The notes beneath the pieces were generated by a model. The model had not been told where the DNA came from and searched no databases. It saw only the letters and a program-made list of their open reading frames with translations. Below are positions 8,544 through 32,324 of a stretch of 64,000 nt of DNA, piece after piece. The position numbers and the translations under genes were made by a program. This DNA comes from Oceanicola sp. 502str15. Its GTDB lineage: Bacteria; Pseudomonadota; Alphaproteobacteria; Rhodobacterales; Rhodobacteraceae. Position 1 is the first letter of the stretch. Each line of letters opens with the position of its first letter. The DNA lies in the NCBI RefSeq assembly GCF_024105635.1, contig NZ_WYDQ01000002.1:62001-126000 (forward strand), written 5' to 3'.

Positions 8544-8726
8544 ATGAATTTCCTGATAACCTGCACATGCGCCCTTGCGCTCGTCTTTCCGGCTTTCTCA
8601 GTGAACGCTTCCAGTGGCAAAGGTCAGCAACCTCATGCAGCAACACACGTTTTGCTGAAATGGAAGTATCGTCCAGCTTCACGTTCAATACGCGGATCGT
8701 CTAAAGCCTCAATCGCCGTAGTCTGA
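8544..8726 (+). CDS. Possible short secreted protein or gene remnant
   Basis: 60 residues with a plausible signal peptide ([20 protein letters not shown]) but a mature part of only ~38 residues with no recognisable fold. GGAGG at 8526-8530 is somewhat far from the ATG (13 bp). The 3' end overlaps the convergent ATPase gene by 26 bp. It may be the truncated start of a longer periplasmic copper protein. Confidence 0.3.
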
Positions 8727-11028
8727 GCGCGTTCGCGATGACCGAGACCGACGAGAGGCTCATTGCGGCGGCGGCGAACATGGGCGACATCAACAGCCCG
8801 AATGCCGGGTAGAGCACGCCCGCAGCTAAGGGCACACCGAGCGTGTTGTAGGCAAAGGCCCAGAACAGGTTCTGGCGTATGTTACCGATCGTCGCCACGG
8901 CCAGCGTCCGTGCCTTGACGATACCGTTCAGATCGCCGCTCAAGAGAGTGATGCCCGCGCTTTCAACCGCCACGTCCGCACCCGTGCCCATGGCCAGGCC
9001 GACGTCCGCTGCGGCCAGAGCCGGTGCATCGTTGACACCATCGCCGGCCATGGCGACCTTTTTGCCATTCGCGTGCAGCTCGTCCACCAGCGCCTTCTTG
9101 TCTTCCGGCAGAACTCCAGCCCGGACCTCGTCGATGCCGAGGAGCTGCGCCACGGCCCTTGCAGTGCGTTCGTTATCCCCCGTAGCCATGATTATCCGCA
9201 GGCCCGCCTCGTGCAGTTCCTTGATGACCTCGGCCGTCGTTTCCTTGATCGGGTCGGCGACGGCGACGATGCCGGACAGTTTTCCTTCTATGGCCACGAA
9301 CATGGCCGTCTTGCCTTCGCTGCGCAGAACGTCTGCCGCCTCCTCTGCTGCGGAGGTGTCGAGGGACATGTCGCGCATCATCGCGGTGTTACCAAGCGCG
9401 ACGGCGTGGCCCGAGACGGTTCCGCTCACACCCTTGCCGGTCACGGCTTCGAAGTTCTCGGCATTGCCGACTTTGATACCTCTCTCTTTCGCGCCTTCGA
9501 CGATGGCCTCTGCCAGCGGGTGCTCAGAGCCTTTTTCCAAGGCAGCCGCGAGGCTCAGAATGGTTTCTTCGGTCTCGTCGCCCAGAGCGTTCACATCGGT
9601 CAGCTTCGGCTTGCCTTCGGTCAGGGTGCCGGTCTTATCGACGATCAGCGTATCGACCTTGGCCATGCGTTCCAGCGCTTCGGCATCCTTGATCAGGACA
9701 CCCGCCTGTGCACCGCGCCCTGCAGCCGTCGTGATCGAGATCGGCGTCGCAAGGCCCAATGCACAGGGGCAGGCGATGATCAGCACTGACACCGCCGAGG
9801 CGATGGCAAAGACGAGCGCAGGTTCGGGCCCGAAGCCGAGCCAAGCGGCGAAGGAAAGGATGGCGACCACGACAACGGTCGGCACGAAATAGGAAGAAAC
9901 CTTGTCCGCAAGCCCCTGGATCGGTGCGCGGGATCGCCGCGCGTTCGCGACCATCTCGACGATCTGGCTCAGCATCGTGTCGGCACCTACACGAGCGGCT
10001 TCTATGACAAGGGAGCCGTTCTTATTGATTGTGCCGCCAGTGACCGTATCGCCCGGACCTTTTTCGACCGGCAACGGCTCGCCAGTGATCATGCTCTCGT
10101 CGATGGATGACGTGCCGTCGACGACCTTGGCATCGACGGGGACCGCGTCGCCGGGGCGCACCCGCAACCGGTCGCCCTCCACAATGTTTTCCAGCGGCGC
10201 GTCATATTCCGTGCCGTCGGGCAGGATGCGCCGCGCCGTTTTCGGGGCCAGATCGAGCAGTGCCCGGATGGCATCGCCGGTCCGTTCCCGCGCCCGCAAT
10301 TCCAAAACCTGTCCGACGAAAATCAGAGTGATGATAACGACGGCGGCTTCAAAATAGGTGCCGACTCCCGCGCCCATCCGGTAAGCCTCCGGAAACACGC
10401 CCGGAAGGAATGTGGCGACCAGCGAATAGATGTAGGCCGCGCCGACACCAAGCGCGATCAGCGTCCACATGTTGGGCGAGCGGTTCACGATCGACGCCCA
10501 TCCCCGCACGAAAAACGGCTTCGCTGCCCACAACACGATAGGCGTCGCCAGCAGGAACTCGATGTATGTCGCCAGCCGATGTCCGATCAAGTCCCGGACC
10601 GGCAAACCGACCAGCTCCCCCATAGTCAGGATAACCAGAGGAACGGCTGCGGCGGCACTGATCCACATCCGGCGGGTAAAGTCGGTCAGTTCTTCGCTGG
10701 GTTCATCCGACGGCACCATCGGTTCAAGCGCCATGCCGCAGATCGGACAGGCGCCGGGCTCGTCACGAACTATCTCGGGGTGCATTGGGCAGGTGTACTG
10801 AGTTCCGGCTTTCGGGGTCATGCTGTGATCCGATGCCGTACCTGAGGCATAGTAGATCGGATCGGCCTCGAACCTGGTCTGGCACTTATCGGAGCAGAAG
10901 TAGAAGGTTTCACCGTCATAATCCGCCTGACGGGCCTGCGGAGACATAGTGACGGACATGCCGCAAACTGGATCCTTGGCCTGATCGGATGACCGCTCTC
11001 GCGGGTGCGGTTCTGTTACCTGTATCAT
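8701..11028 (-). CDS. Cu/Ag P1B-type ATPase with YHS and heavy-metal-binding N-terminal domains
   Basis: 775 residues. No HMA domain. Instead there is a YHS domain (DPVCGM at ~19-24, then [13 protein letters not shown] with C45/C49), followed by a Cys-rich heavy-metal-binding module (YTCPMHPEI...CPICGM, C80/C94/C97). The P1B core follows: [45 protein letters not shown] ATPases form the CopA2/CopB/SilP-like group, linked to silver/copper efflux or to copper supply of periplasmic enzymes. It is preceded by its own CueR-type promoter (11060-11090). It differs from the copA at 1120-3627 and is not a recent duplicate. Confidence 0.92.
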
Positions 11029-11174: not shown

Positions 11175-12254
11175 CTACCGCCTACCCAACCGCCCAAGCC
11201 TAGCCAACTGCGCCAACATTTGACGACCGACTCCGGGAGAGTTATTGGCCGCGTTCGGCGCAGATGCACCCGGCGACTCTTGTCGAACTGGTAACGCCTG
11301 AACCCCGAGCATTTGCCGCGTTCTGAGCGCAGCGTACTCAACGCCACTCGCACTGCCCACGACATAGCGATTGTAGACCTGTCGGCTTCCTGAGAGCCCG
11401 CGGGCGAAGGCGTACCCACCCCCCAGGCCAGCAGACAGGGCCGGCATCATGATGTTCCCGGAGATCGACCGGACAATGAAGGGCGTCGCGCAGAGAAAGC
11501 CTTTGGCCATGAGCACCATCATGAAGAACGGGAGGAGGGCACCGATGTTCGATGCGCCTTCGGGGTCGCCCAGCTCCGCAAGGAGCGCGCGCGACACCCC
11601 AGTGATGGTGGCGAAGACGCCTGCGATCACGATCGGGTAGATGGCGAAGGAGATGAGCGCCGAGAGCCAACGCGCGAAGTAATCCTTGGTGACCTCGAAG
11701 AGGGTGAGGAAGATCATTACCGGGGCCATGCTGATCAGCAGGGTGATCATCAGCCGGGAGGCGACGACGATGAAGGCGGCGAGACCGCCCAGGATCGCAA
11801 GCAACAGGATTCCGAGCGTGTCCAGCATCGCACCTGCCATCCAGTTCAGCTCGGCGCCGGCCGCATTCAGGTAGTCTCCGAGCGCCTCGATGAGCTGATC
11901 GAACTCCTCCGCGAACGTCCCCGAAGGTCCCGGCGTGCCACCTCCGACAGAGGCGACCAGCGAGCCCGCGATGCTGTCGATCCCGCTGAGGATCGCCGCA
12001 GACAGCGCATTGAACTGCACCCAGTTGGTCGCGAAAACACCTATGAGCCCGATCTTTGCCGCAAGCCAGAAAGCCGATCGGCCATCCATAGAGCGCACCT
12101 GGTAGATCATGTTGAGACAGACCAGCATGACCACGAGGGTCGTGCCCAGCACGAGCATGGTCCCGACGGTCGCGGCAACGGCTCCGAATTGCGTTTCCGC
12201 GGCGGTCTCGAGGTAGCTTTCGGCAGTTTCCACGATATAGGCGACGATGGTCAT
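11175..12254 (-). CDS. virB6: VirB6-type T4SS inner-membrane channel protein
   Basis: 359 residues with at least six hydrophobic segments (for example TVGTMLVLGTTLVVMLVCL, ILLLAILGGLAAFIVVAS, FAIYPIVIAGVFATITGVS, LLPFFMMVLMAKGFLCATPF). A Gly/Ser-rich periplasmic loop lies near residue 105. The central WMAGAMLDTLGILLL...ASRLMITLLISMAPVMIFLTLF stretch is typical of the VirB6/TrbL family, which forms the inner-membrane core of the export channel. It is the last gene of the operon, 12 bp after a small secreted protein gene. The C-terminal ~60 residues are hydrophilic and probably cytoplasmic. Confidence 0.85.
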   Translation of the reverse strand: MTIVAYIVETAESYLETAAETQFGAVAATVGTMLVLGTTLVVMLVCLNMIYQVRSMDGRSAFWLAAKIGLIGVFATNWVQFNALSAAILSGIDSIAGSLVASVGGGTPGPSGTFAEEFDQLIEALGDYLNAAGAELNWMAGAMLDTLGILLLAILGGLAAFIVVASRLMITLLISMAPVMIFLTLFEVTKDYFARWLSALISFAIYPIVIAGVFATITGVSRALLAELGDPEGASNIGALLPFFMMVLMAKGFLCATPFIVRSISGNIMMPALSAGLGGGYAFARGLSGSRQVYNRYVVGSASGVEYAALRTRQMLGVQALPVRQESPGASAPNAANNSPGVGRQMLAQLARLGRLGRR

Positions 12255-12671: not shown

Positions 12672-12859
12672 GGCGTGGTCTCTTCTTGGCGCTCCTCGAT
12701 CTCTCGCTTCAGGAAAAGTGTGTATCCCTCACCGCTGGGCTCCACTGAAATCACTTCCCACCCATTCGCCCCATGTACGTTGAGGCCGCGCCGCATCTCG
12801 GCGTAATCCTTCCGTTTCCTCACCTCGAAGAAGACGATGTCGTACTCAAACTGCTTCAT
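12668..12859 (-). CDS. DUF4177-like small cytosolic protein
   Basis: 63 residues. The start is placed at ATG 12859, which overlaps the end of virB11 by 14 bp. The sequence MKQFEYDIVFFEV...GLNVHGANGWEVISVEPSGEGYTLFLKRE matches the compact DUF4177 pattern (beta strand, Leu-N-x-G-xx-GWE, beta strand, FLKR). DUF4177 proteins have no established function. Its coupling to virB11 upstream and to the secreted protein downstream shows that it is translated as part of the secretion operon. Confidence 0.72.
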   Translation of the reverse strand: MKQFEYDIVFFEVRKRKDYAEMRRGLNVHGANGWEVISVEPSGEGYTLFLKREIEERQEETTP

Positions 12860-13844
12860 GGGTCTTGCCTCCGCTGGGTTCGGTTCCGGGCAGGTAGAAC
12901 TCGGTGATGCCGCGGGCACCCTCGTGGCGGCCGGCCTGGATGATCACGTCGATAGAGTTCTTGATGTAGTGGATCATGTCGCGGTAGGTCATCGGGATCT
13001 CGGTCTTGAGGGCGGCGATGGCGAGGCGCTGGACCGCCAGCTGGGGCGTCTCGGCGTGGAGCGTGGTCATCGAGCCGCCATGGCCGGTGTTGATCGCCTC
13101 GAGGAAGGTCATTGCCTCCTTGCCGCGCACCTCGCCGAGGACGATCCGGTCGGGCCGCATGCGCAGGGTGGCGGTCAGGAGCACATCGGCCGTCTGGAAG
13201 GGTGCATCGCGGTTGGCGATGAGCGTGACGGCGTTGGGCTGGACGGGCAGCAACTCGGCGGCATCCTCGATCGTGACCACCCGCTCCTCGGCGCCCACTT
13301 GGGAGAGGATCTTGCGGGCGGCGACCGTCTTGCCGGTCGAGGTGCCCCCGGAGACGATCATGTTGAGCTTGTTCTCGACACAGAAGGCGAGGGCGGCGTG
13401 GATGTCGCCCTCGGCGACGAGGTTGCGCAGGGCCCGGGTCTTCTCCTGGCGCAGAAGCTCGAGCCGGCGCTCCTTGCCATAGAGGAAGCCGAGCTCGATC
13501 CGCTCGAGCGGCAGACTGGAGAAAAACCTGAGCGAGATCGACATCCCCGACAGCACGGCGGGCGGGGTCACGACCTGGGCCCGGATCGGGCGATTTTTGT
13601 AGGCAATGGAGACCGAGATGATGGGCCGATCCTTGCTCATGGTGGTGTTCGCCGACGACGCGATCTGGTTGCCGAGGTCGCGCAGCTCGGTCGGGCTGAG
13701 CCGCTGGTCCAGCGCTTGCATGAAGCGATCGCCCTGGAACTCTCCCCAGCAGCTGCCGTCGGGGTTGATGCAGATCTCGATCACGTCCTCTCTGCCTGCG
13801 TCCTGCAGCCGGTCGAGCGAAGTTTGAAGGTAGGAAAGGGTCAT
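12846..13844 (-). CDS. virB11: VirB11-type T4SS traffic ATPase
   Basis: 332 residues. N-terminal domain to ~150, then the RecA-like ATPase domain with Walker A GGTSTGKT, Asp box RVVTIEDAAELL, Walker B-region RPDRIVLGEVRGKEAM and His-box GHGGSMTTLHAE. VirB11 hexamers sit at the cytoplasmic base of the channel and power pilus assembly and substrate transfer. Three bp after the virB10 stop. Length is typical for the family. Confidence 0.93.
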   Translation of the reverse strand: MTLSYLQTSLDRLQDAGREDVIEICINPDGSCWGEFQGDRFMQALDQRLSPTELRDLGNQIASSANTTMSKDRPIISVSIAYKNRPIRAQVVTPPAVLSGMSISLRFFSSLPLERIELGFLYGKERRLELLRQEKTRALRNLVAEGDIHAALAFCVENKLNMIVSGGTSTGKTVAARKILSQVGAEERVVTIEDAAELLPVQPNAVTLIANRDAPFQTADVLLTATLRMRPDRIVLGEVRGKEAMTFLEAINTGHGGSMTTLHAETPQLAVQRLAIAALKTEIPMTYRDMIHYIKNSIDVIIQAGRHEGARGITEFYLPGTEPSGGKTHEAV

Positions 13845-13847
13845 GGC

Positions 13848-15221
13848 TCAGAAGATCTCCAGGTCGCGGTCGACCATCACGGTGACACGTGCACCGGGGT
13901 CGACCCGGATGACCGGCCCGAGGGAGAGGTAGTCACCGATGACGCTGTCGGTCGCATCGCTGAGATCACCGCCAATATCCTCGAGGACGCTGGCGGCATT
14001 CTCGTCGCCGACCTGGCCCGCAGCCATGCGCGGGGCGGCCGAGAGGATCGAGATCAGGGCAGCAGAGCCGAAGCGCTTGGCGAAGCGCGTATCGACCCGA
14101 CCGGTGACGCCGGAGCGCCCGAGGGAGTCGCCGCCGAAGGCGCTGATCGTGATCGCCTGGTTCGACGGCAGGAGGATCCGGTCCCAAGCGATGGTCACGC
14201 GGCGTGCGCCAATCTCGGCCCCGGCCCGGTAGCGACCGATGAGGCGGGCGCCGCGCGGGATGAGCAGCCGGGTTCCGTCATGGCTGAAGACATCCTCGGA
14301 GATGACCGCCCGGGTCTGGCCGGGCAGGGAGCTGTCGAGCGCGGTCTCCATCACCGCCTGGATCATCGTGCCCTGGACGACAGTGTTCGAGGGGTTGGCG
14401 ATCACCTCTGCCTGGGTGACCTCGGTGGGCCTGGCGCCGTTCAGCACGAAATCGGTCGCCGCGTCGAACATCGCCTCGGTGAGCTCGGTCTCTCCCGCAG
14501 TCGCCCCGCCGGTGCCGCCGAAGGCCAGGAGGGGCGAGCCGATCCGGCGCTCCTGGAAGGCCCGCTCCTCGGCCGCCCGGCGTTCGAGCTCGGCCAGCCG
14601 GCGCGCTTCCTCCTCCCGCGCCCGCAGCTCCTCCTCGCTCGGACCGGTCGGGGCGGGGGCGGGTTTCCGGGCCTCGAGCAGGGCGAGGTCGAGGTCCATG
14701 CGCAGTTGCCGCAGCTCGCGGTCGCGCGCGGCGAGTTCGTCCTGGAACGCGGTCTGGGCCGCCTCGGAGGCGGCCTGCAGGGCCGCGATCCGCGCTGTCA
14801 GCGCCTCGATCGCAGCGGCGGCCGCGTCATCGGTCTCGACACCGGAGGCCGGGGCGGTCTTCAACGCCTCGATCTCGGCCTGCAACGCGGCGATCTGCGC
14901 CAGCAGCTCGGCGTTGGGTTCGGCCGGTGCGGGTTCGACGAGGACGATCTCGGGCTCCGGAGCAGGGGGCGGGTCGAGGGGGGTGATCTCGCCGAAGCCG
15001 TCGCCCTCGGTCTGGAATTCGTCTGGGGTGGCCGTCGGCAGGGAAAGCTCGTCACCGGAGCGTGCGACGAAATACAGGACTGCGCCGCCCGTGAGGATCA
15101 ACGCAACCACGAGCAAGGCCAGCCGCCTCCGCTGGCGCGGTTTGGCCGTCCGTTGTCGCGGGTAACCCTGTTCCAGGGCGGCCAGGCGGCGTTCGAGATC
15201 GGGGTTGGACGTGTCGCTCAC
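13848..15221 (-). CDS. virB10: VirB10/TrbI-type T4SS core protein
   Basis: 457 residues. Short cytoplasmic N terminus, one TM helix (RLALLVVALILTGGAVLYFVA, ~32-52), a Pro/Glu-rich stretch, a long Ala/Glu coiled coil with conspicuous ALxAxI repeats (~95-210), and the C-terminal beta-barrel domain (GTMIQAVMETALDSSLPG, LLIPRGARLIGRYRAGAEIGARR, RVTIAWDRILLPS). VirB10 spans the envelope and links inner and outer core complexes. The start overlaps the virB9 stop by 4 bp. Confidence 0.92.
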   Translation of the reverse strand: MSDTSNPDLERRLAALEQGYPRQRTAKPRQRRRLALLVVALILTGGAVLYFVARSGDELSLPTATPDEFQTEGDGFGEITPLDPPPAPEPEIVLVEPAPAEPNAELLAQIAALQAEIEALKTAPASGVETDDAAAAAIEALTARIAALQAASEAAQTAFQDELAARDRELRQLRMDLDLALLEARKPAPAPTGPSEEELRAREEEARRLAELERRAAEERAFQERRIGSPLLAFGGTGGATAGETELTEAMFDAATDFVLNGARPTEVTQAEVIANPSNTVVQGTMIQAVMETALDSSLPGQTRAVISEDVFSHDGTRLLIPRGARLIGRYRAGAEIGARRVTIAWDRILLPSNQAITISAFGGDSLGRSGVTGRVDTRFAKRFGSAALISILSAAPRMAAGQVGDENAASVLEDIGGDLSDATDSVIGDYLSLGPVIRVDPGARVTVMVDRDLEIF

Positions 15222-15919
15222 GAGGTACCTCCCCGCGGCGAGGTCGCGGTGACGCAGACCACCTCATCGCCGAGCCGAAGGACCCACTCCGGGTTCACGC
15301 CGGAGACGCGGATGACGCCGTCCTCCACGGTCCCGGAATTGACGGTGCGCTCGCGACCCCTGGCGTGGCGGAAGATCGCCGGCACCGGCGCGTTCCGCAG
15401 GAAGGCAAAGTAGGTGAACGTGCCGTCATCCCAGATCCGTGTCGGGGTGAAGGCGGTCTTCGCGCTGACCGCGTAGTTCGCGTTCGGGGCGGCGCGGGCG
15501 ATGGCGCCCGCGGGCCGGCGCGCGTCACCGGGGTAGCGGAACTGGACCACGTAGAAGGTCGGGGTCGAGACCTCGGTCACGTGGAAATAGTAGCTCCGCC
15601 GGTTGGTGTAGACCGTGACGTTGGTCCGGATGCCGCGGGCGAGCGGCTTGATCGCAAAGGCCCGCCCCCCGGGTACGCCGTCGATCTCGAAGCCCACGGT
15701 GTCGCCGGCGATGATCGAGCGGATGGTCTCGCCCGCGCCGAACTCCACCGTCGAGACATGGGTGAGCGAGACGCTGAGCCGGTAGACCTGGGCCTCCTGG
15801 TAGGTGGCGATGCGCACGCGGCTGTCATGCGGGCCGCTCCTCGGGATGGCCTCCGCAACGGCAAGGGTGGGCAGGAGCAGGAGTCCGAAGAGGAAAGGGC
15901 AGGGGAGGCGCATGGTCAA
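15218..15919 (-). CDS. virB9: VirB9/TrbG-type T4SS outer-membrane core protein
   Basis: 233 residues with a signal peptide (PFLFGLLLLPTLAVAEA). The N-terminal domain has the family pattern DSRVRIATYQEAQVYRLSVSLTHVSTVEFGAGETI, and the C-terminal domain has PTRIWDDGTFTYFAFLRNAPVPAIF. VirB9 with VirB7 and VirB10 forms the outer-membrane core ring. It overlaps virB8 and virB10 by 4 bp at each end, indicating tight coupling. Confidence 0.92.
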   Translation of the reverse strand: MTMRLPCPFLFGLLLLPTLAVAEAIPRSGPHDSRVRIATYQEAQVYRLSVSLTHVSTVEFGAGETIRSIIAGDTVGFEIDGVPGGRAFAIKPLARGIRTNVTVYTNRRSYYFHVTEVSTPTFYVVQFRYPGDARRPAGAIARAAPNANYAVSAKTAFTPTRIWDDGTFTYFAFLRNAPVPAIFRHARGRERTVNSGTVEDGVIRVSGVNPEWVLRLGDEVVCVTATSPRGGTS

Positions 15920-16668
15920 TTCTCCAGCCTGTCGGATCGGATCGCGTACTCGGTGACGGTGAAGCCAAAGGGGTTCGCCCAGACCTCGTCGATGGTGCGG
16001 CGGGTCTCGGGGCGGAACTCGAAGAGGAGCGTGGCGGTGAAGAGGCCGGCCTGGACACCGTTGAGCGAGGTCAGGCGTTTCCGGAGCCGGACCGTGGCGC
16101 GCCGCGCGCCGATCCGGTTGATGCTGAGCACCTCGACTTCGAGGCGGGCGTTGGGTCCGTAAACCTTCGGGGGGTAGTCGGGGGAGGCGGAGGTCCAGAG
16201 GTCGCGGAGCGAGGCCTCGGCGGCGCGATCCGAACGGCCGAGCACGGAGCGGATGCGCAGATCGTTGTCGAGCTGGTTGTAGACCTCGCGATCGGTCACG
16301 TAGCGGAAAACCTCCGCCTCGATGACGGCGCGGTTCTCCGTCACCGTGGTGGCACCCACCGAGGCCTCGGGCAGGGCAACGCCGGTCTCGGGATCATAGG
16401 GGACCACGACGGGCGGGGGATCGACATCGAGCACCGAGACCGCGGCGGCCGCGAGGCACCCCAGGGCGCCGAAGATCAGGCCGGTGAGCCCCACGCGCTG
16501 CCAGAGATGCTCCCGGCGCAGCGCGCCGTAGACGAGTTCCTCTTCGAGGATGGCGGCCTCGTCGGCCAAGGGGCGGTCCTCCAGGCGGGACAATGCCTCG
16601 TGCCCCGCCCCCTTGCGGCCCATTGCATCATCTGACCAGGCGAAGAGATCGGTGGCACCCTCGGTCAT
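15916..16668 (-). CDS. virB8: VirB8/TrbF-type T4SS inner-membrane assembly protein
   Basis: 250 residues. A hydrophilic cytoplasmic N terminus is followed by one TM segment (GLIFGALGCLAAAAVSVLDV, ~63-82). The periplasmic NTF2-like domain has ENRAVIEAEVFRYVTDREVYN, the typical opening of VirB8, and ends in RRTIDEVWANPFGFTVTEYAI. VirB8 nucleates the channel in the inner membrane. 12 bp separate it from virB5 upstream. Confidence 0.9.
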   Translation of the reverse strand: MTEGATDLFAWSDDAMGRKGAGHEALSRLEDRPLADEAAILEEELVYGALRREHLWQRVGLTGLIFGALGCLAAAAVSVLDVDPPPVVVPYDPETGVALPEASVGATTVTENRAVIEAEVFRYVTDREVYNQLDNDLRIRSVLGRSDRAAEASLRDLWTSASPDYPPKVYGPNARLEVEVLSINRIGARRATVRLRKRLTSLNGVQAGLFTATLLFEFRPETRRTIDEVWANPFGFTVTEYAIRSDRLEN

Positions 16669-16680
16669 CGTCCGGCCCCC

Positions 16681-17508
16681 TCAATCTGCCCGGAGCTCGG
16701 GCAGGGTGAACTCCATGAAGCGCTGTTCCTCGGCGATGGTGGCGGCATCGATGACACCCCCCGTTCCATCACCCACGGTCTGCACCGCCTCGAGCTGCCA
16801 CAGCGCGACCAGCGCGATGGCAAGCTCGGCGGTGACGCGGGTGTTGAGATCGACGCTCTCCTTCAGCTCGTCCATGTCATCGATGAGCCCGACGAGCCGC
16901 TCGACGCGGGCCAGGCTTTGTCCGGCGTCATCGTAGCTGTTCTGGGCCGCGGCCGAGACCAGCGCGCCGGTCGTGGCCTGGGTGGCGACGCGCTCGGCGC
17001 CGGGGTTGCCGCTGCGCGCCATCTCCGAGAGCGTGTCCTCGTCGAAGCCCAGATCGGCGAGCACCCGGTCCATCTGGGTCTCGATCTCGGCCGCACCCGA
17101 GCCCCTGAGCTTGGAAAAATCACCGGTCTTGATCGCCTCGATGGTGGCCAGGATGTCGCCGAACTCCTGGTCGAGGAGCCCGTTCAGCTCTTCCTCCATT
17201 TCCGTGCGGAGGATCTCGGGGAGCTCGGCGAGGCCCGTGAGCGCCTCGTAGGTGCGCTGCAACTCCGCAAGCTGGTCCGTGAGGGTGGTCAGGTGCTTGC
17301 GGAGTTGCACGAGCTGCTCGTTCTGCAGCAGCTCATCCTCGATCATCTGCCGCAGTTGCGCGATGTTCTGGGCGATGTTCTGAGTATCGACCACCGGCAC
17401 GCCCTGGGAAAGGGCAGGGGAGGGGGGCAAGCCGGCACCGAGCAGCCCGAGCATACAGGCCAGGGCAGCGGATCGGATCGGGAATCCGGGGGCAGGGCGG
17501 GCGGTCAT
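16681..17508 (-). CDS. virB5: VirB5/TrbJ-like T4SS pilus-associated protein
   Basis: 275 residues with a signal sequence ending near LSQG. The mature part begins QGVPVVDTQNIAQNIAQLRQ and is almost entirely coiled-coil helix (EDELLQNEQLVQLRKHLTTL, DQLAELQRTYEAL), as in VirB5/TrbJ, a minor pilus and adhesion component. The C terminus is EEQRFMEFTLPELRAD. Both the QGVPV-D start and the RFMEFT-ELR end recur in the preceding transglycosylase gene (17508-18662). Its ATG overlaps the stop of that gene by 1 bp. Confidence 0.82.
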   Translation of the reverse strand: MTARPAPGFPIRSAALACMLGLLGAGLPPSPALSQGVPVVDTQNIAQNIAQLRQMIEDELLQNEQLVQLRKHLTTLTDQLAELQRTYEALTGLAELPEILRTEMEEELNGLLDQEFGDILATIEAIKTGDFSKLRGSGAAEIETQMDRVLADLGFDEDTLSEMARSGNPGAERVATQATTGALVSAAAQNSYDDAGQSLARVERLVGLIDDMDELKESVDLNTRVTAELAIALVALWQLEAVQTVGDGTGGVIDAATIAEEQRFMEFTLPELRAD

Positions 17509-18662
17509 CAGCGCAGCTCCTTCATCGTGAACTCCATGAACCTGTTCTCGGCCATGCGCGCGCTGGCCTGGGCGAGTTGGGCCGCGCTCGGCACCCGGGT
17601 GCGTGCCGCCTTCAGCCGGATCCGGGCGGCGACAAGGCGGGTCAGCTCCGCGCGGGCGTAGCTGTTCAGCGCGACGCTCTCCTGGACGTCCCGGGTCGTG
17701 CCGATCCGGGTGACGATGTCCTGGATCCGCAGCGCGGCCTGCCGGATCGCGATCGGTGCCCTGCTGCCGTAGAAAGCCGCCCCGACGCTGGCGAAGGAGA
17801 GCTCTGCATTGGCGAGCAGCACGGGATCGATGGTGCCGAGCGCCTCGATGCCGCCGATGCGCGCGAGGTAGAGGTTGTAGCGTTCGGGGATGACCCGGAC
17901 GTAGTGCTGCGTCTCGGCGAAGGGCGGCACGCCACCGTATTCCAGCACGCGTCCGGGCCCGGCGTTGTAGGCGGCCAGCGCGTTGACGATGTTGCCGTCA
18001 AAGGTCGCGAGCTGGGCCGCGAGATAGCGTGCGCCGCCCTCGACCTGCAGATAAGGGCTGTCGTAATAGGCGGGGTTGATACCGAGATCGCTCGCTGTGC
18101 CGGGCATGATCTGGGTGAGGCCGAAGGCCCCGACCGGCGAGCGCGCGCCGATGGAGAAGCGGCTTTCCTGCCAGATCAGCGCCTGGAGAAGCGCGCGCCA
18201 CTGGACGACCGAGAGACCGGCCCGCCCGACCCCAGGCCTCCCGTGGGTTTCCCGGGCGACCCGGATGATCAGCTGCTCGACGTTCTCCGCCGCATCCCCG
18301 AACATCTGTGCCCCGGCGGGGTTGGGATCGAGCTCGGCCGATCCGTAGACCGCAAGGGCGCTGCGCTCCGCGTCGCCGCTGCCCGCCTCCAGCTCCGAGA
18401 CCATGCCCGTAAACCCTGCGCCGTCGAAGCTGGTCTGGGCGGCGAGGATCCTGCGCAGGACAGCGAGCTGTTCCTGCTCGATCGCGGCCAGTTCCTCCCT
18501 GAGGGTCAGCTTCTGGCGCTGGCGCGCGAGGTCGGCCTCCCGGTCGCCGGTCTCGACGATGTCACGCGCGGTCAATCCATGGTCCGCGACCGGGACACCC
18601 TGGGCGACGACTGGCCCGGTGGACAGGCCAAGGAAGGTGATGAGAAGGCGCAACCCGGTCAC
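17508..18662 (-). CDS. Lytic transglycosylase nested in a VirB5-like scaffold
   Basis: 384 residues. The GTG start at 18662 is chosen because GGGAGGT lies 5 bp upstream and the product then begins with a signal peptide (LRLLITFLGLSTGPVVAQ). Residues 21-95 begin QGVPVADHG and continue as coiled coil. Residues ~155-260 form an SLT lytic transglycosylase domain: ALIWQESRF with catalytic Glu166, SPVGAFGLTQIMPGTA, ALAAYNAGPGRV. Residues ~300-384 return to helices that match the end of VirB5 (QESVALNSYARAEL, then AENRFMEFTMKELR). It would cut peptidoglycan for channel assembly. A separate VirB1-like transglycosylase is also present (21753-22481). The GTG overlaps the preceding lipoprotein stop (GTGA). 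Confidence 0.88.
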   Translation of the reverse strand: MTGLRLLITFLGLSTGPVVAQGVPVADHGLTARDIVETGDREADLARQRQKLTLREELAAIEQEQLAVLRRILAAQTSFDGAGFTGMVSELEAGSGDAERSALAVYGSAELDPNPAGAQMFGDAAENVEQLIIRVARETHGRPGVGRAGLSVVQWRALLQALIWQESRFSIGARSPVGAFGLTQIMPGTASDLGINPAYYDSPYLQVEGGARYLAAQLATFDGNIVNALAAYNAGPGRVLEYGGVPPFAETQHYVRVIPERYNLYLARIGGIEALGTIDPVLLANAELSFASVGAAFYGSRAPIAIRQAALRIQDIVTRIGTTRDVQESVALNSYARAELTRLVAARIRLKAARTRVPSAAQLAQASARMAENRFMEFTMKELR

Positions 18663-18826
18663 GGTGCACCTCCCGTGTCTCCCGGTCCGGCAAGAACAGT
18701 AAAGGTGCAGTCTCCCGCGCCGGGCCCGCGGGAGGCGACCTCGAAGCAATTGGCGCGCGGCTCCCGGTAGGGTGAGCAGGCGGCCAGCAGGCAGAGGGCA
18801 AGGAGGAGCGGGGCAGGGCGGATCAT
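18659..18826 (-). CDS. virB7: VirB7-like small lipoprotein
   Basis: 55 residues. It starts MIRPAPLLLALCLLAAC, a short lipoprotein signal with lipobox LAAC, then SPYREPRANCFEVASRGPG and two more cysteines. ATG 18826 overlaps the virB4 stop as ATGA, and its TGA overlaps the next gene's GTG start as GTGA, so it is clearly part of the translated operon. VirB7 lipoproteins are this small and tether the VirB9-VirB10 core in the outer membrane. The assignment rests on size, signal and operon position, because VirB7 sequences are poorly conserved. Confidence 0.72.
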   Translation of the reverse strand: MIRPAPLLLALCLLAACSPYREPRANCFEVASRGPGAGDCTFTVLAGPGDTGGAP

Positions 18827-21186
18827 CCGAGCCTCCAGAAGTCCGGGCGGCTGCGATAGTCGGGCCCGACCAGCTCTTCGCCCTTTTCCATGCCGCCGAG
18901 GATGGTGAGGAGAGGCCCGAGGGCCGAGAGGTCCGCATCGACGACGATCGAGCCGGTGTCATCGCGGATGAGCGCCAGTCGGCTATGGCTGCCGGTGTTC
19001 AGCAGCACGTCGAGTTCCTTCTCGCCTAGGTTCAGCATCGCGTAATCCGCAGCCTGGGCGCGAATGTTCGGAAGCAGCACCTGGGTCGGCACCGCCTCGA
19101 CGATGGTCTTGCCGGTCCGCGTGCGCTCGAGCTGGCTCGCGTATTGCGTCATCATCACCGCGACGGTGTTCTGCTTCCGGGCGGTCACCAGCCAGTTCGA
19201 GAGCCGTTCCGCAAAGTAGGGGTTGTCGAGCGCCTTCCAGGCCTCGTCGACCACGATGAGGGTCGGGCGCCGGTCCTCGATCTCGCGCTCGACGCGGCGG
19301 AAGAGGTAGGAGAGCACCGCCATCTGTTCCTTCTCGCTCTCGCTGTCGAGGATCCCGGTCAGATCGAAGCCCACCACGTCGCCCTCAAGCGAGAAGCTGT
19401 CCTCGAGGCCCTGGCCGAAGATCCAGCCGTAGCGACCCTCGGCGGTCCATTCCAGCAGCCGCTCGTGCAGGTCGCCCGCGTCATCGGTCGAGACGAAGAG
19501 CGAGGCAAAATCCGCCCAGTTTCGCAGGGCGGGGCTCGCGGCACCCGCGTTCTGACGCACCACCTCCTGGATCCGGTTGGCCTGCGCGGGGCTGAGCGGC
19601 TTGTCGGGCCGATGCAGCAGCGTGCCGAGCCAGTCCGAGAGCCAGGCCATGCCGCGGGCGTCGATCTCGCTCCAGAGCGGGTTGAGCCCGGTCGGCTGTC
19701 CCGGTTTGACCGAGGCGTAGCGCCCGCCGTTGGCGCGCACCGCCATCTCCATGCCGAGCCGGTAGTCGAAGACGAAGACCCGCGCACAGGTGCGGCGGGC
19801 TTGGGTCATCAGGAAGGCCGCGAGCACCGACTTGCCCGAGCCGGGCCGGCCCAGGATGAGGGAGTGCCCGCCGGTGGGCTCGGCGGTGGGCGATCCCTGC
19901 TCGTGGAAGGAGAAGCGGTAGGCGCTGCGCTCGGGGGTCGGAAAGAGCGTGATCTCCTGGCCCCAGGGGAGCTGGTGCTTGGCCTTGCCGAGTTGGGTGC
20001 GGTGGAGTGCGGCGAAATCCGCGAAGTTGCGGTTGGTGACCGCGCTGGCACGCACCCGCATGCGCTGGTTGCCGGGATGCTGGCTGAAGTAATGCGCCTT
20101 CGCCGCGATCCGCTCTCCGATCATCTTCACCCCCTCGGCGGCAGCCGCGTTGACGATCTCCGCGCCGAGGCTCTGCAGCTCCTCTGCCGTGTCGCAGAAG
20201 AGCGTGACGACCATGTGGTGATCCCCGAAGCTCTGCCGCCGGGCCTCGAGGTCGTCATGCGCGATGTCGAGCGCTTCGAGCAGCGAAAGGGCGGCGTCCT
20301 GGGAGGCCTGCATCTGGCGCTTCTGGCGCCGGATCCTTCCCGCCATGAGGTTCGAGTTGATCGGGGTGAAGGACTGGGCGACGATCATGTCCACGGGCAG
20401 GCCCAGCATGTCGAACATGGTGCAGGTGGTGCCCTCGGGATATTCCGCGATGGTGAAGCTCCGGCCGACGCGGGATCCTGCCACCCCGCCCGAGAGCACG
20501 AAATGGTCCTCGAGGAAGGTCACGCGGGTGTTGGCGACATTCCAGGAGAGGAACCCGAAGCGCCCCGCCGGGTAGAGCGGAAGCTCGCGCCCGGTGTTGA
20601 GCGCGCCGAGAAACCCGAGGAGTTCGCCGGAACCCGCGGAGAGCAGGCGAGGCGTGAGTTCGGCGAGGCCCGAGCTGAAGACCTGGACGGCGTCTCCGAG
20701 GCGCCGGAGGCGTTTGCGGGTCTGCGCCTGCAGGCGGTCCGACGCGCGGGCTGCGAGGAACCTCGCGAGGCTCTTCGGCGGCACCCGGTGGAGGATGGTC
20801 AGGGTGAGTGTCTTGTCCCGGAGCCGGCTGTCCGCGAGCCTCTTGCGCCAGGCCGTATCCACCGCCGCCGCGAACCCGTCGCCCTCCACCGGCAGCAACT
20901 CGGGGGTGATCGCCTTCGAGACCTTGTGCACGTAGTAGCTGAACTCCGGCCCGAGCTGGGCGATGAGCCGGGCAAAGAGGGCGGTGATCTTGTCGAGATG
21001 GGCGTCATCGGTGGTCTGGCTGTTGACGCCGCCGATCCGGATGCACTGGAAGAGTTCGTTGGTCCGGGTCCGCACCGTGTGATCGTCAACGAGGCTGATG
21101 TAAGGAAGCATATGGGCGAGGTGGCGCTCGCGCCTGTACCACTCGGGCAGGAGGCTGCGGGGGTCTTCCAACGTGTCACGGGGCAT
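18823..21186 (-). CDS. virB4: VirB4-type T4SS ATPase
   Basis: 787 residues. The N-terminal CagE/TrbE/VirB4 domain (LPYISLVDDHTVRTRTNELFQCIRIGG region, DHHMVVTLFCDTAEE) is followed by the ATPase domain with Walker A LILGRPGSGKSVLAAFL, Walker B TLIVVDEAWKAL and the VMMTQYASQLERTRTGK motif. VirB4 is the largest energy component, needed for pilus subunit dislocation and substrate passage. Full length. It overlaps virB3 (11 bp) and the lipoprotein gene (4 bp). Confidence 0.95.
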   Translation of the reverse strand: MPRDTLEDPRSLLPEWYRRERHLAHMLPYISLVDDHTVRTRTNELFQCIRIGGVNSQTTDDAHLDKITALFARLIAQLGPEFSYYVHKVSKAITPELLPVEGDGFAAAVDTAWRKRLADSRLRDKTLTLTILHRVPPKSLARFLAARASDRLQAQTRKRLRRLGDAVQVFSSGLAELTPRLLSAGSGELLGFLGALNTGRELPLYPAGRFGFLSWNVANTRVTFLEDHFVLSGGVAGSRVGRSFTIAEYPEGTTCTMFDMLGLPVDMIVAQSFTPINSNLMAGRIRRQKRQMQASQDAALSLLEALDIAHDDLEARRQSFGDHHMVVTLFCDTAEELQSLGAEIVNAAAAEGVKMIGERIAAKAHYFSQHPGNQRMRVRASAVTNRNFADFAALHRTQLGKAKHQLPWGQEITLFPTPERSAYRFSFHEQGSPTAEPTGGHSLILGRPGSGKSVLAAFLMTQARRTCARVFVFDYRLGMEMAVRANGGRYASVKPGQPTGLNPLWSEIDARGMAWLSDWLGTLLHRPDKPLSPAQANRIQEVVRQNAGAASPALRNWADFASLFVSTDDAGDLHERLLEWTAEGRYGWIFGQGLEDSFSLEGDVVGFDLTGILDSESEKEQMAVLSYLFRRVEREIEDRRPTLIVVDEAWKALDNPYFAERLSNWLVTARKQNTVAVMMTQYASQLERTRTGKTIVEAVPTQVLLPNIRAQAADYAMLNLGEKELDVLLNTGSHSRLALIRDDTGSIVVDADLSALGPLLTILGGMEKGEELVGPDYRSRPDFWRLG

Positions 21187-21469
21187 AGCTGTCTCCGCTG
21201 TGGCGATGCCGGTTCCGCGTCGGCGGGGTCTCCTGGAAGGCGGTCATCATCACGTCGATGAAGCGTGGGTCCCAGTCGGCGGCCTTCCAGAGGAGCGGGT
21301 AGAGCACCGCGGCGAAGCTCAGCACCGTCAGGTGCTGGATCCAGACAAAGAGCAGGACCGAGCCGAAGAGCCAGACCATGGCGTAGAGGATTGGCAGGCC
21401 GAGGAGCTTCGGCGGGCGGACGAGGCCCAGGAAGAGGGGAGAGCGCTCGGCCACGGCCCCCGTCCTCAC
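21176..21469 (-). CDS. virB3: VirB3-type T4SS inner-membrane protein
   Basis: 97 residues. Short N terminus (SPLFLGLVRPPKLLGLP, the usual VirB3 lead), two adjacent hydrophobic segments (ILYAMVWLFGSVLLFVWIQHL and LSFAAVLYPLL), then WDPRFIDVMMTAF and a basic tail. VirB3 works with VirB4 in pilin handling. It overlaps virB2 by 4 bp and virB4 by 11 bp. Confidence 0.88.
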   Translation of the reverse strand: MRTGAVAERSPLFLGLVRPPKLLGLPILYAMVWLFGSVLLFVWIQHLTVLSFAAVLYPLLWKAADWDPRFIDVMMTAFQETPPTRNRHRHSGDSYAP

Positions 21470-21756
21470 GCGCCGAAGACGGCGGCAACGATGGTGGGCG
21501 CCGCCGCGACGCCCGCAATCCCAACCAGCACCCAGAGGGCCTGGCGCAGGTCGATGATGTTGAAGAACCAGCTGAGGAAGACCCCGAGCACCGCAAGCGT
21601 GGCGATGACGACGCCGAGGGGCCCGGTCAGCGCATCTACGATGCCTTGAAGGAGCTCCTGGATCGGCGAAAGATCGATGCTCTGAGCCTGCGCCGGCCGG
21701 GAGCCAAGCCCGAACAGGGCCAGGGGCGCGAGGAGGAGACGGGGCGTTCGGGTCAT
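21466..21756 (-). CDS. virB2: VirB2-type major pilin
   Basis: 96 residues. Signal peptide of ~24 residues ending AQA, then SIDLSPIQELLQGIVDALTGPLGVVIATLAVLGVF and a second hydrophobic helix near the C terminus (ALWVLVGIAGVAAAPTIVAAVF). This two-helix pattern is the VirB2/TrbC pilin. It overlaps the transglycosylase upstream and virB3 downstream by 4 bp each. Confidence 0.88.
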   Translation of the reverse strand: MTRTPRLLLAPLALFGLGSRPAQAQSIDLSPIQELLQGIVDALTGPLGVVIATLAVLGVFLSWFFNIIDLRQALWVLVGIAGVAAAPTIVAAVFGA

Positions 21757-22481
21757 TCGGAAGCTCCTTTCAGCCGCTGGACGACGGCAAGCACGCGCTG
21801 GACGTGGGTGCGGGTTTCCCGGTAGTGCGGGATGCCGGCGTGACGGCGAACGGCCTCGGGCCCGGCATTGTAGGCGGCGAGTGCGAGACGCGCGTCGCCG
21901 AACTCGGCCAGCATCATCGCGAGGTAACGTGCGGAGCCGTCGAGGTTCTGGTGGACATCATGCGGATCGACCCCGAGCTGCCGCGCGGTCGCGGGCATCA
22001 GCTGGCCGAGGCCGATGGCGCCGACGTGGGACAGGGCCCGGGGGTTGTAGCCGCTCTCCACCTCGATGTTGGCGCGGTAGAGCGTCATCCAGTCGGTCGC
22101 CGAGAGCCTCGCCGCGCGAGGGCCGGCATGTCCCGCGTAACGCAGCGCCGTGGCTTCGATGGCGGACAGGACGTTGGGGTGGGGCAAGGGGGACCGCAAC
22201 CTTTGGGAGTTTCTACGAGAGCCCTTGGTCACAAAGGTCGCAGCCTGCGGCACCTCTGGGTCCGCCTCGAGGCCCACGCCATCCACATAGGTGCGGGCAA
22301 AAGACGTCTGGGATTGCGAGGCCTGGAGAGCCCCGCTTGCGCCCATGAGCAGGACCATCTCGGCTGACGCGGCAGGTGCGAGCAGGGAAAAGAGGAGGGC
22401 GCTAAGCCCGAGCGGCAGCGATTTCTTCGGGTGAGAGCCTGTGCACCGTTCTCTGCCCTTCTTCCAGCGGTATATCGGCAT
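21753..22481 (-). CDS. virB1: VirB1-type lytic transglycosylase
   Basis: About 242 residues if ATG 22481 is used; the start is uncertain because no good ribosome site precedes it and the signal peptide (KKSLPLGLSALLFSLLAPAASA) begins ~18 residues further in. The 5' part overlaps the end of the 22402-22788 gene by 80 bp. The SLT domain shows YRANIEVESGYNPRALS with the catalytic Glu, VGAIGLGQLMPATARQLGV and LALAAYNAGPEAVRRH. VirB1 opens peptidoglycan for the secretion channel. It is the first recognisable vir gene of the operon and overlaps virB2 by 4 bp. Confidence 0.85.
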   Translation of the reverse strand: MPIYRWKKGRERCTGSHPKKSLPLGLSALLFSLLAPAASAEMVLLMGASGALQASQSQTSFARTYVDGVGLEADPEVPQAATFVTKGSRRNSQRLRSPLPHPNVLSAIEATALRYAGHAGPRAARLSATDWMTLYRANIEVESGYNPRALSHVGAIGLGQLMPATARQLGVDPHDVHQNLDGSARYLAMMLAEFGDARLALAAYNAGPEAVRRHAGIPHYRETRTHVQRVLAVVQRLKGASE

Positions 22482-28696: not shown

Positions 28697-30293
28697 TCAC
28701 ATGTTCGGGTAGTTCGGCCCGTCGCCGCCCTGGGGCACGGTCCAGTTGATGTTCTGCGGCGGGTCCTTGATGTCGCAGGTCTTGCAGTGCACGCAGTTCT
28801 GGAAGTTGATCACGAACTCCGGGCTGCCGTCCTTCTCCACCACCTCGTAGGCGCCGGCAGGGCAGTAACGTTGCGCCGGCTCGGCGAATTGCAGAGTGAA
28901 CTGGATCGGAACGCTCGGATCCTTCAGCTTCAGGTGGCAGGGCTGGCTTTCCTCGTGGTTCGTCATCGAGAACGACACGTTGGTCAGCCGGTCGAAGCTC
29001 AGTTTGCCATCCGGCTTGGGGTAGTCGATCGGGGTGTGGTCGGCCGCGAGCCCGGTGGCCTCGGCATAATTCCTGCCATTACCCATGGTGCCGAAAAAGC
29101 TGAACCCGAAGAGGTTGTTCGTCCACATGTCGAGCCCGCCATGCCCGAGCGACGGCCAGAGCCCCCACTTCGACCACATCGGCTTCACGTTCCGCATCTT
29201 CTTAAGGTCGGCGCCAATCGAGCCCCGCCTGGATCGCCTCCCACGCGGCCTCCGCGGCGGCCTTGCCCGAGAGCATCGCGTTGTGGTTGCCCTTGATCCG
29301 CGGCACGTTGACCATGCCCACCGAGCAGCCCAGCAGCGCCACGCCCGGCGCCACCATCTTCGGCATCGACTGGTAGCCCCTCTCGGAATTCGCCCGCGCG
29401 CCATTGGCCACGCGTATGCCGCCCTCCAGCAGCTCCGCCACCATCGGGTGATGTTTGAACCGCTGGAACTCCATGTAGGGGAAGAGATAGGGGTTCTTGT
29501 AGTTCAGGTGCACCACGAAACCCACGTAAACCTAATTGTTCTCAAGATGATAGATGAAGCTGCCGCCACCAGCGTTGCCGCCCAGCGGCCAGCCCATCGT
29601 GTGGGTCACCGTGCCCTCGCGGTGCTTGGCCGAGTCGATCTCCCAGATCTCCTTTATGCCCAGCCCGTATTTTTGCGGCTCCTTGCCCTCGGCCAGCCCG
29701 TACTTGCCGAACACTTCTTTGGCGAGCGGGCCCCGCACGCCTTCGCTGAGGAACACTTACTTCCCGTTCAGCACCATCCCCGGCTCGTAGCCGTCGCCCT
29801 GGGTGCCATCGGGGTTCTTGCCGAACTCGCCGGCCACTACGCCCTTCACCCGGTCGCCCTCGTAGACCAGCTCGCTGCACGCCATGCCAGGGAACACCTC
29901 GACCCCCTGCGCCTCGGCCTGCTCCGCCATCCAGCGGCAGACGTTGCCCATGGAAACGATGTAGTTGCCGTGGTTGTTTATCAGCGGCGGCATGGGCGTG
30001 TTGGGCACCCGCAGCGCGCCCTCCTCGCCGAGAATGTAGGAGTTGTCCTTCGTCACCGGCACGTTCAGCGGCGCGGCCTTCTCCTTCCAGTCGGCGATGA
30101 GCGCATCGAGGCCCGACGGGTCCAGCACCGCCCCCGAGAGGATATGCGTCCCCATCTCCGAGCCCTTCTCCAGCACCACCACGTCGAGATCCGCATCGAG
30201 CTGCTTGAGCCGGATCGCCGCAGAAAGCCCCGCCGGACCGGCCCCCACGATCACCACGTCGTAGTCCATGGATTCGCGTTCGATCTCGGCCAT
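28697..30293 (-). pseudogene. Electron transfer flavoprotein-ubiquinone oxidoreductase, broken
   Basis: Reading from ATG 30293, the protein follows ETF-QO (FAD site [32 protein letters not shown]). It then stops at TAA 29757-29759, where Tyr is expected ([12 protein letters not shown]), and at TAG 29532-29534, where Gln is expected (LENN-Q-VYVGFVVHLNY). Near 29215-29222 an out-of-frame deletion of roughly 50 bp removes the AIQAG-to-DLKK linker. The frame resumes to the normal C terminus with the [4Fe-4S] ligands (NCVHCKTCDI) and GPNYPNM. The intact enzyme passes electrons from ETF to ubiquinone. Three separate lesions with otherwise good conservation indicate a fairly recent loss. It lies beside intact etfBA. 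Confidence 0.9.
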
Positions 30294-30368
30294 GGGGCAT
30301 TCCTTTGCTCACTTTTCCGCCTCGGTCCAGCAAGGCCAGATCTGGAGCGAACGTGTTTTCGGCCCTGC

Positions 30369-31295
30369 TCAGAGCTTTTCGATCAGCTCCGGCACCGCAG
30401 TGAAGAGGTCTGCGACGAGGCCGTAGTCGGCGACCTGGAAGATCGGGGCCTCTTCGTCCTTGTTGATCGCCACGATCACCTTGGAGTCCTTCATGCCCGC
30501 GAGGTGCTGGATCGCGCCGGAGATGCCGACCGCGACGTAGAGGTCGGGGGCGACCACCTTGCCGGTCTGGCCGACCTGCCAGTCGTTCGGGGCGAAGCCG
30601 GAGTCGACCGCGGCGCGCGAGGCACCCACGGCGGCGCCGAGCTTGTCGGCGAGCTTCTCGATCAGCGCGAAGTCCTCTTCCGAGCCCACGCCACGGCCGC
30701 CGGAGACGACGATGCCGGCGGAGGTTAGCTCGGGGCGGTCGCTCTCGGCCACCTTGTCTTCGACCCATTCGGAGAGGCCGGGGTTGTCGGCTGCGGAGGC
30801 GGTTTCGACTGAGGCCGAACCGCCCTCACCGGCGGCGTCGAAGGTGGAGGTTCGGAAGGTGATAACCTTCTTTTCATCCTTCGACTTCACGGTCTGGATC
30901 GCGTTCCCGGCGTAGATCGGACGCTCGAAGGTGTCGGCGTCGACAACGCCGGACACGTCCGAAAGGATCATCACATCGAGCAGGGCGGCGACGCGGGGCA
31001 TCACGTTCTTTGCATCGGTCGTGGCGGGGGCGACGATGTGCGAGTAGTCACCCGCAAGCGAGACGATCAGCGCGGCGGTCGGCTCGGCAAGACGGTGGCC
31101 CAGCGAAGCGTCTTCGGCGACGAGCACCTCGGCCACGCCGTCAATCTTGGCAGCGGCCTCACCGGCGGCAGAGGCAGAGGCCCCGGCGCAGAGCACGGTC
31201 ACATCACCCAGAGATTTGGCAGCAGAGACGGCCTTGGCGGTGGCGTCCATCGCCAGCTCGCCATCGGTCACTTCGGCAAGAAGGAGAACAGCCAT
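30369..31295 (-). CDS. etfA: Electron transfer flavoprotein alpha subunit
   Basis: 308 residues. N-terminal domain ([21 protein letters not shown]) and the C-terminal FAD-binding domain with [66 protein letters not shown] and [25 protein letters not shown], the classic EtfA signature. With EtfB it accepts electrons from acyl-CoA dehydrogenases, such as the one at 36576-37718. The start overlaps the etfB stop by 1 bp. The normal next partner, ETF-QO, is a pseudogene 75 bp downstream. Confidence 0.95.
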
Positions 31296-32053
31296 CAGAT
31301 AACCCCCTTTTCTTTGAGTTTCGCCACCAGCGCATCGACATCGGCCACGATCTCGCCTGCCTGGCGGGTTTCGGGCTCGGAGGTTTTCACCACTTCGAGG
31401 CGCGGGGAGACGTCGACGCCGTAGTCGGCGGCGGTCTTTTCGTCCAAGGGCTTCTTCTTGGCCTTCATGATGTTGGGCAGCGACGCGTAGCGCGGCTCGT
31501 TGAGGCGCAGATCGACGGTGACGATGGCGGGCATCTTCACCTTGATGGTCTGCAGGCCGCCATCGACCTCGCGGGTCACAACGGCGCTGTCCCCCTCGAC
31601 CTTCACCTCGGAGGCGAAGGTGGCCTGGCTCCAGCCGAGCAGGGCCGAAAGCATCTGGCCGGTGGCGTTCATGTCGTTGTCGATCGCCTGCTTGCCGGCG
31701 AGCACGAGGCCCGGCTGTTCTTCTTCGACGACCTTGGCGAGGATCTTGGCGACGGCGAGCGGCTCGATGTCCTGATGCACATCATCGGCGGCCACGACCA
31801 GGATCGCCCGGTCGGCGCCCATGGCGAGTGCGGTGCGCAGCGTTTCCTGAGCCTGTTTCACGCCGATCGACACGGCGATCACCTCGTCGGCGGTTCCGGC
31901 CTCTTTCAGCCGGATCGCCTCTTCGACGGCAATCTCGTCGAAGGGGTTCATCGACATCTTCACATTGGCAAGATCGACACCGCTTCCGTCCGATTTGACA
32001 CGGACCTTCACGTTGTAGTCGATCACCCGTTTCACAGGCACAAGCACCTTCAT
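31295..32053 (-). CDS. etfB: Electron transfer flavoprotein beta subunit
   Basis: 252 residues. Start ATG 32053 gives [20 protein letters not shown], the standard EtfB opening. [18 protein letters not shown] and the nucleotide (AMP) loop region [20 protein letters not shown] and [25 protein letters not shown] are all family hallmarks. It forms the heterodimer with EtfA. No distinct promoter motif was found in the 271 bp upstream. Confidence 0.95.
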
Positions 32054-32324
32054 TTGCACGGTCCTTATAGTTTCGGGTGGTCGCAGGCTATGCAGACCCC
32101 GACAGTGTTTCGTTGTGGTGATCCCGCCTCCAGCGGAACGAAGTGAGGTCGCATGTCGCAATCGGTGTCAGACCACTGGACTCAATCCTACCTAAGCGCA
32201 AGGCAGCCTCCCGGGCAGTTCAGCGGCCAATAGTCTTTGCATCGGGCGGTCCGGGTTCCGGCCCGGCGCAAATCAAACGAAGAACTTCAGTTTCAAAAAA
32301 TCCCACCAAGGCGGAGGAGCAAGC

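Follow-up and report, generated by a model that had tools for sequence, protein, structure and literature searches.

The 64,000-nucleotide stretch of Oceanicola sp. 502str15 DNA analysed here (the window) carries a type IV secretion system (T4SS) operon encoding a paralogue of VirB5 in which the middle region has been exchanged for an SLT lytic transglycosylase domain, while the bundle helices and the QGVPV-D N terminus are kept. From the anatomy of this fusion it is probable that a VirB5-type scaffold keeps a putative lytic transglycosylase centred on the conjugation machine's axis, in a manner resembling FlgJ.

The operon lies on the minus strand from 22373 down to 11175, in the order virB1, virB2, virB3, virB4, lipoprotein, SLT-VirB5 fusion, virB5, virB8, virB9, virB10, virB11 and virB6 (Table 1). 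The coordinates that the first-pass annotation had given for the fusion gene and virB5 were confirmed, as was its claim of a normal VirB1 in the same operon, which Pfam identifies as an SLT protein. The fusion gene and virB5 overlap by one base (TGATG), and the GTG start codon of the former overlaps the stop of the small lipoprotein ORF (GTGA). In this 55-aa ORF, between virB4 and the fusion, the lipobox is followed by NCF and DC.F motifs, and 44 of the 49 loci described below have an ORF with a lipobox pattern ahead of the fusion; the window ORF is perhaps the VirB7 of its operon. The contig, 202,880 bases long, also bears matches to a VirD4 coupling protein (150.6-151.8 kb) and a relaxase (153.9-154.3 kb), and the replicon is therefore most likely a conjugative plasmid. 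By eye, ORFs at 28697-32161 of the window resemble electron-transfer flavoprotein genes and those at 8701-11028 (minus strand) a heavy-metal P-type ATPase; both share this plasmid-like contig with the virB operon.

Table 1. Genes of the virB operon and parts of the fusion and VirB5 proteins, in window coordinates
Feature	Position	Strand	Basis or remark
virB1, ordinary SLT protein of the operon	21753..22373	-	Pfam
virB2 pilin	21466..21756	-	Pfam
virB3	21176..21469	-	by position; D. shibae gene at the equivalent place annotated VirB3
virB4	18823..21186	-	Pfam
small lipoprotein ORF, perhaps VirB7	18659..18826	-	55 aa, lipobox LLAAC; name from position and lipobox
SLT-VirB5 fusion gene	17508..18662	-	384 aa, GTG start; Pfam SLT, BLASTP, profiles
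predicted signal peptide, residues 1-20	18603..18662	-	cut before QGVPV, predicted from the conserved boundary
VirB5-like N arm, residues 21-77	18432..18602	-	tip motif and first bundle helix 28-77
linker, residues 78-125	18288..18431	-	no VirB5 match (81-125 tested)
SLT lytic transglycosylase domain, residues 126-268	17859..18287	-	
Glu166 codon	18165..18167	-	catalytic by homology; E in 49/49 rows
VirB5-like C arm, residues 279-384	17511..17828	-	two bundle helices; profile alignment
virB5	16681..17508	-	275 aa; Pfam PF07996, profile vs TrwJ and TraC
VirB5 middle region, residues 92-167, replaced in the fusion	17008..17235	-	VirB5 model and profile alignment
virB8	15916..16668	-	Pfam
virB9	15218..15919	-	Pfam PF03524
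virB10	13848..15221	-	by order, as annotated in D. shibae
virB11	12846..13844	-	by order, as annotated in D. shibae
virB6	11175..12254	-	Pfam PF04610

Pfam detects T4SS/VirB5 (PF07996) in the neighbouring VirB5 with E 4.2e-19 and SLT alone in the fusion (residues 155-247, E 1.2e-19). The window fusion stays below the cut-off of the Pfam T4SS profile, which does not recognise it as a VirB5; a relative, L044, gives E 0.0026 and 18.6 bits against a cut-off of 24.7. BLASTP between the two window proteins aligns both ends, fusion 12-79 with VirB5 26-93 (35% over 69 columns, E 1e-5) and fusion 308-384 with VirB5 197-273 (35% over 77 residues, E 4e-9). In a profile-profile alignment of 49 fusion proteins with 46 VirB5s, where residues 1-80 and 269-384 served as arm queries, fusion 4-77 pairs with VirB5 18-91 (98.3%, E 1.4e-14) and fusion 279-384 with VirB5 168-273 in 106 gapless columns. 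For this C arm the whole VirB5 gives 97.9% with E 3.2e-13, and the C part of VirB5 taken separately gives 98.4% with E 8.8e-15. Without the signal and the QGVPV motif, the first helix of the N arm (28-77) matches VirB5 42-91 with 91.5% and E 8.7e-7, and whole VirB5 with 83.3% and E 8.6e-6, while control pieces from the linker, the SLT domain and crossed arms remain under 1% against VirB5 profiles. When all ungapped offsets are compared, the claimed register ranks first in both arms: in the N arm it stands about 3.4 SD over the mean of 226 offsets, in the C arm about 6.7 SD over that of 170. Both families share N-arm positions such as Q21, G22, V23, P24 and D27, and C-arm positions such as R312, N333, A338, E339 and A352.

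From these matches and their negative controls it follows that fusion 28-77 and 279-384 correspond to VirB5 42-91 and 168-273; since linker and SLT domain find no counterpart in VirB5, a 76-aa middle region has been replaced by about 201 aa. The tandem virB5 paralogy proposed in the first-pass annotation is thus upheld by adjacent genes with homologous arms, and the similarity extends beyond the short end motifs. Its arm limits (21-150 and 265-384) gave way to 1-77 and 279-384, and of its scenario, duplication of virB5 followed by insertion of an SLT domain, the VirB5 origin stood and the insertion became an exchange. The VirB5 profile reaches TrwJ with E 3.5e-13 and TraC with E 1.9e-6; that of the fusion matches TrwJ weakly (E 0.17). 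Among the best candidates (up to 17 per genome) of the 149 genomes surveyed below, the VirB5 profile at E<=1e-8 retrieved VirB5s in virB operons and nine fusion arms, and nothing further.

The SLT domain with Glu166 sits between the two arms, as had been claimed. This residue, presumably the catalytic one as in SLT enzymes, belongs to a motif (E166, S167, G181, Q184, Y232, N233, G235) that is invariant in all 49 fusion rows, and in a structure search the fold matches solved lytic transglycosylases. Judged by its sequence, the domain is a putative lytic transglycosylase with an intact catalytic motif, which would cleave peptidoglycan. Among the records listed, the fusion is annotated solely as a transglycosylase. 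In one relative (P0006, 435 aa) the segment preceding the SLT domain, VYG..DPNPGGA..FGDAAENxEQLIIRVA, is duplicated in tandem.

In the predicted structure of the fusion the SLT domain is confident, and the arms have lower values (pLDDT about 41-68 in the N arm block, about 53-83 in the C arm); the model of VirB5, with a mean pLDDT of 48, is poor. Because arm and VirB5 models are of low confidence, they were compared in helix order and length: on these terms helices 28-77, 280-322 and 326-376 of the fusion agree with 42-93, 169-209 and 217-266 of VirB5. The structure-search matches listed were SLT chains or generic bundles.

The pair is not confined to the window. A tblastn survey of 72,556 plasmid records returned 1136 with any match and 264 in which one place covered at least 80% of the query; the 60 matches listed bear Rhodobacterales names. 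An even sample of the order, 149 genomes (all listed ones of one family code), contained 48 full-length copies in 44 genomes, counted by hand, so that the nested order does recur in other vir clusters. By coordinates, VirB5 lies directly downstream in 48 of 48 places, two of them with an incomplete VirB5 (cut by the contig end in G121; a shortened ORF near the contig end in G016:C6), and the same sample has three VirB5 places without a fusion (G133:C33, G084:C30, G184:C9). Together with a copy from another alphaproteobacterial family (G282), these make up 49 loci. The fusion lies between virB4 and virB5 in 48 of them, including L217, in which virB4 is present as a fragment; in L222 the contig is cut. 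A separate, ordinary SLT protein in the virB1 place accompanies it in 45/49. The loci in which no VirB1 was found within the searched stretch are L184 and L222, which are cut, L217, which is truncated, and L221, which runs from virB4 to virB11. Considering the best candidates (up to four per genome), full-length copies occur in 4 of 385 genomes of the class sample and 9 of 398 of the phylum sample; apart from these and two genomes with the Rhizobiales form described below, none reached E 1e-48.

Several loci deserve separate mention. Two operon types are seen among L183-L234: in that of the window virB6 follows virB11, and in a divergent one it is placed between virB5 and virB8. The fusion precedes virB5 in both. 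In L230, L231 and L232 the virB operons are ordered alike and have a virB1-place SLT protein and VirB5 with no fusion between virB4 and virB5, which makes them a useful natural comparison. Sequencing error or decay has left the fusion split over two reading frames in L006 (G015:C2) and L022 (G028:C73) and interrupted by one stop codon in L002 (G006:C111). L217 (G016:C6) is a partial operon composed of an 85-aa virB4 fragment, the fusion and the shortened VirB5 near the contig end, in a genome which also has a complete operon on C9 (L224).

A divergent form is found in Rhizobiales, where five annotated plasmids share the order virB1, virB2, virB3, virB4, SLT protein, virB5, small protein, virB6, virB8, virB9, virB10. 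Here virB5, virB6 and virB8 are named by order (the records read type IV secretion system protein), and Pfam supports VirB5 in three loci. Both the SLT protein and its VirB5 start with QVPV-D, and the N arm matches its own VirB5 profile with 96.3% and E 1.7e-9 (80.1% without the signal). The C arm finds no match in its own VirB5 profile (0.8%), and the comparison with the Rhodobacterales C arm gives 63.3%; with BLASTP, the pSMED03 pair of SLT protein and VirB5 is weakly similar (E 0.006). Two more of the 398 genomes in the phylum sample have this form; the Rhodobacterales fusion profile spans 161-364 and 161-366 in two genomes with it, and it matches one Rhizobiales-type VirB5 in both arms (E 3.3e-6), whereas VirB5 profile A4 retrieved no ORF at E<=1 in those two loci. 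The case thus rests in part on position and on these linking matches; the Rhizobiales form probably belongs, less securely, to the same class, at the same operon position.

Phylogenies of the arms suggest a long shared past. The arm tree was built from selected rows, 53 of 71 after identical rows and rows with fewer than 90 of 162 positions were dropped; in it VirB5s split from fusions with support 94, as read from the printed tree. The VirB5 side includes three fusion-free VirB5s and one Rhizobiales VirB5, and the branching within the two sides looks mirrored. The sole retained Rhizobiales fusion forms a very long branch (support 70); with one fusion and one VirB5 from Rhizobiales, the tree does not date the fusion relative to that order. 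Over 18 pairs, fusion and VirB5 arm distances correlate with a Mantel r of 0.943, reached by 0 of 9999 permutations; linkage within a single operon would by itself also produce such a correlation. The separate and mirrored trees point to an old pair inherited together, which suggests that the duplication preceded the spread of the family. By sequence comparison, then, virB5 and the fusion are an old, widespread, co-inherited pair and not a local event.

The source of the SLT domain differs between two tree models. Under LG+G4 (105 of 235 rows left after thinning), the fusion SLT joins that of the operon VirB1 with support 90 and the Rhizobiales form falls elsewhere; under a mixture model (74 of the 105 rows), the fusion joins the Rhizobiales form (93/82), and the VirB1 grouping is not rejected (AU p 0.309).

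Known systems offer several comparisons, for which the papers given by PMC number were available in part. VirB5, TrwJ and TraC (PF07996) share with the fusion the signal peptide (predicted in the latter), the QG[VI]PV-D mature N terminus, the operon neighbourhood, the first bundle helix and the two C-terminal bundle helices, but keep the 76 middle residues where the fusion has linker and SLT domain. R388 TrwJ is a pentamer seated on VirB6. Its mature N terminus, which begins at Gln23, forms a needle-like tip (PMC11294453); the N terminus kept in the fusion aligns with this tip region, and what the fusion retains are the counterparts of the tip and the helical body in TrwJ. Gram-negative VirB1 (the GAMMA class of PMC12857230) is likewise a T4SS operon member with an SLT domain and its catalytic motif, but here it is a separate gene heading the operon, whereas the SLT domain of the fusion is flanked by VirB5 arms. 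TraG of pIP501, a Gram-positive VirB1 with SLT plus CHAP, is also a T4SS wall enzyme fused to other domains; unlike the fusion, such proteins are membrane-anchored multi-domain wall enzymes, with no VirB5 part named in the portion of PMC12857230 available. The flagellar rod protein FlgJ, with its peptidoglycan hydrolase domain, similarly unites an axial-appendage scaffold and a wall-cutting enzyme in one chain (PMC8517470). FlgJ belongs to a different machine, and the likeness is one of working and not of kinship. The folds differ, and the FlgJ enzyme is placed at one end while that of the fusion is nested.

The first-pass annotation knew of no described class of this kind, and in the openly licensed PMC literature searched, as far as its text was available, no description of a VirB5-SLT protein was found. 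The available parts of the reviews PMC12624023 and PMC12857230 assign wall opening to VirB1 and the tip to VirB5, and do not mention such a fusion. Two papers on roseobacter conjugation work with plasmids of the fusion-bearing kind (PMC4886583, PMC11481893), and in their available text the counts for 'virb5' and 'transglycosylase' are 0. D. shibae pDSHI01, whose annotated record carries a fusion-containing virB operon, has been shown to conjugate (PMC4886583).

The favoured reading, a wall cutter on a VirB5-type scaffold, draws on the sharply bounded homology of the two arms to VirB5, model helices matching in order and length, an invariant SLT motif in a fold shared with solved enzymes, and a TrwJ-like tip N terminus. 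It also draws on the constant position beside virB5 and, in 48/49 loci, after virB4, on the mirrored arm trees, on VirD4 and relaxase on the contig, and on the conjugation of pDSHI01. The fusion would be exported, and its VirB5-like scaffold would let it join the stalk or tip assembly, where it might share rings with VirB5 or cap VirB6 transiently. There it would hold its peptidoglycan-cutting head where stalk and pilus pass the wall, VirB1 having presumably made an earlier opening for the outer core complex. The first-pass annotation had put forward a pilus-tip-type protein that may cut peptidoglycan and couple wall opening to pilus or adhesin placement. Against this reading count the near-constant presence of an ordinary VirB1, which means that the fusion is not the sole wall cutter, the possibility that pentamers pack with the help of the VirB5 segment that was exchanged, and the failure of the Pfam VirB5 profile on the window fusion and the weak match of the fusion profile to TrwJ.

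The same retained tip motif and bundle could also serve a protein that joins the VirB5 ring and is extruded at the pilus tip, where the SLT head would cut recipient peptidoglycan, which we consider unlikely, and would help the channel across the recipient envelope, which is doubtful to the same degree. The donor wall is already served by a separate VirB1. Pilus tips are where VirB5 is located (Aly and Baron 2007, cited in PMC12624023). Section 10 of that 2025 EMBO J review considers whether VirB5 might be a drill bit that pierces the wall, gives no settled account of how the recipient wall is crossed and, in the part available, names no wall-cutting enzyme in this connection. A bulky SLT head, possibly in five copies, would nevertheless have to pass the outer-membrane core. 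In known cases, moreover, the target of VirB1 enzymes is the donor wall. The reviews PMC12857230 and PMC12624023, so far as available, agree on this.

That each operon has two SLT proteins admits another interpretation, also improbable, in which the arms are a docking or solubility tag through which VirB8, VirB9 or VirB10 would receive an additional lytic transglycosylase, with no role in stalk or tip and with the C arm acting like Agrobacterium VirB1*. VirB1 partners and the VirB1* piece, which interacts with pilus subunits, are described in the available parts of PMC8707931 and PMC12624023, and the LG+G4 tree unites the two SLT domains; the mixture model, on the other hand, neither joins them nor rejects their joining, and in retaining both the tip motif and the helical layout of VirB5 the arms exceed what a tag needs. 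It is very improbable that the ends are unrelated to VirB5 and represent secreted coiled coils of a generic sort, for although the arms are helical and single-sequence identity to VirB5 is low (18/57 in the N arm, 29/106 in the C arm), this is contradicted by register-specific profile matches with negative controls, by a VirB5 profile that proved specific across 149 genomes and by the pairing in 48/48 places.

It is unsettled by what means the stalk and pilus of a T4SS cross the wall of the donor and the DNA that of the recipient. T4 gp5 is a puncturing device to which an armed pilus tip may be compared; were such a tip real, T4SSs would gain a similar device and the unexplained crossing of the recipient wall a mechanism. 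In any case, a wall-cutting domain on a VirB5 scaffold is kept beside VirB5 in many Rhodobacterales operons, with a divergent form in Rhizobiales. The fusion is a real, conserved addition to the wall-opening and tip components of the T4SS, undescribed in the literature searched as far as available, and suggests that the T4SS of marine and soil bacteria carries its own wall cutter on a tip-like scaffold.
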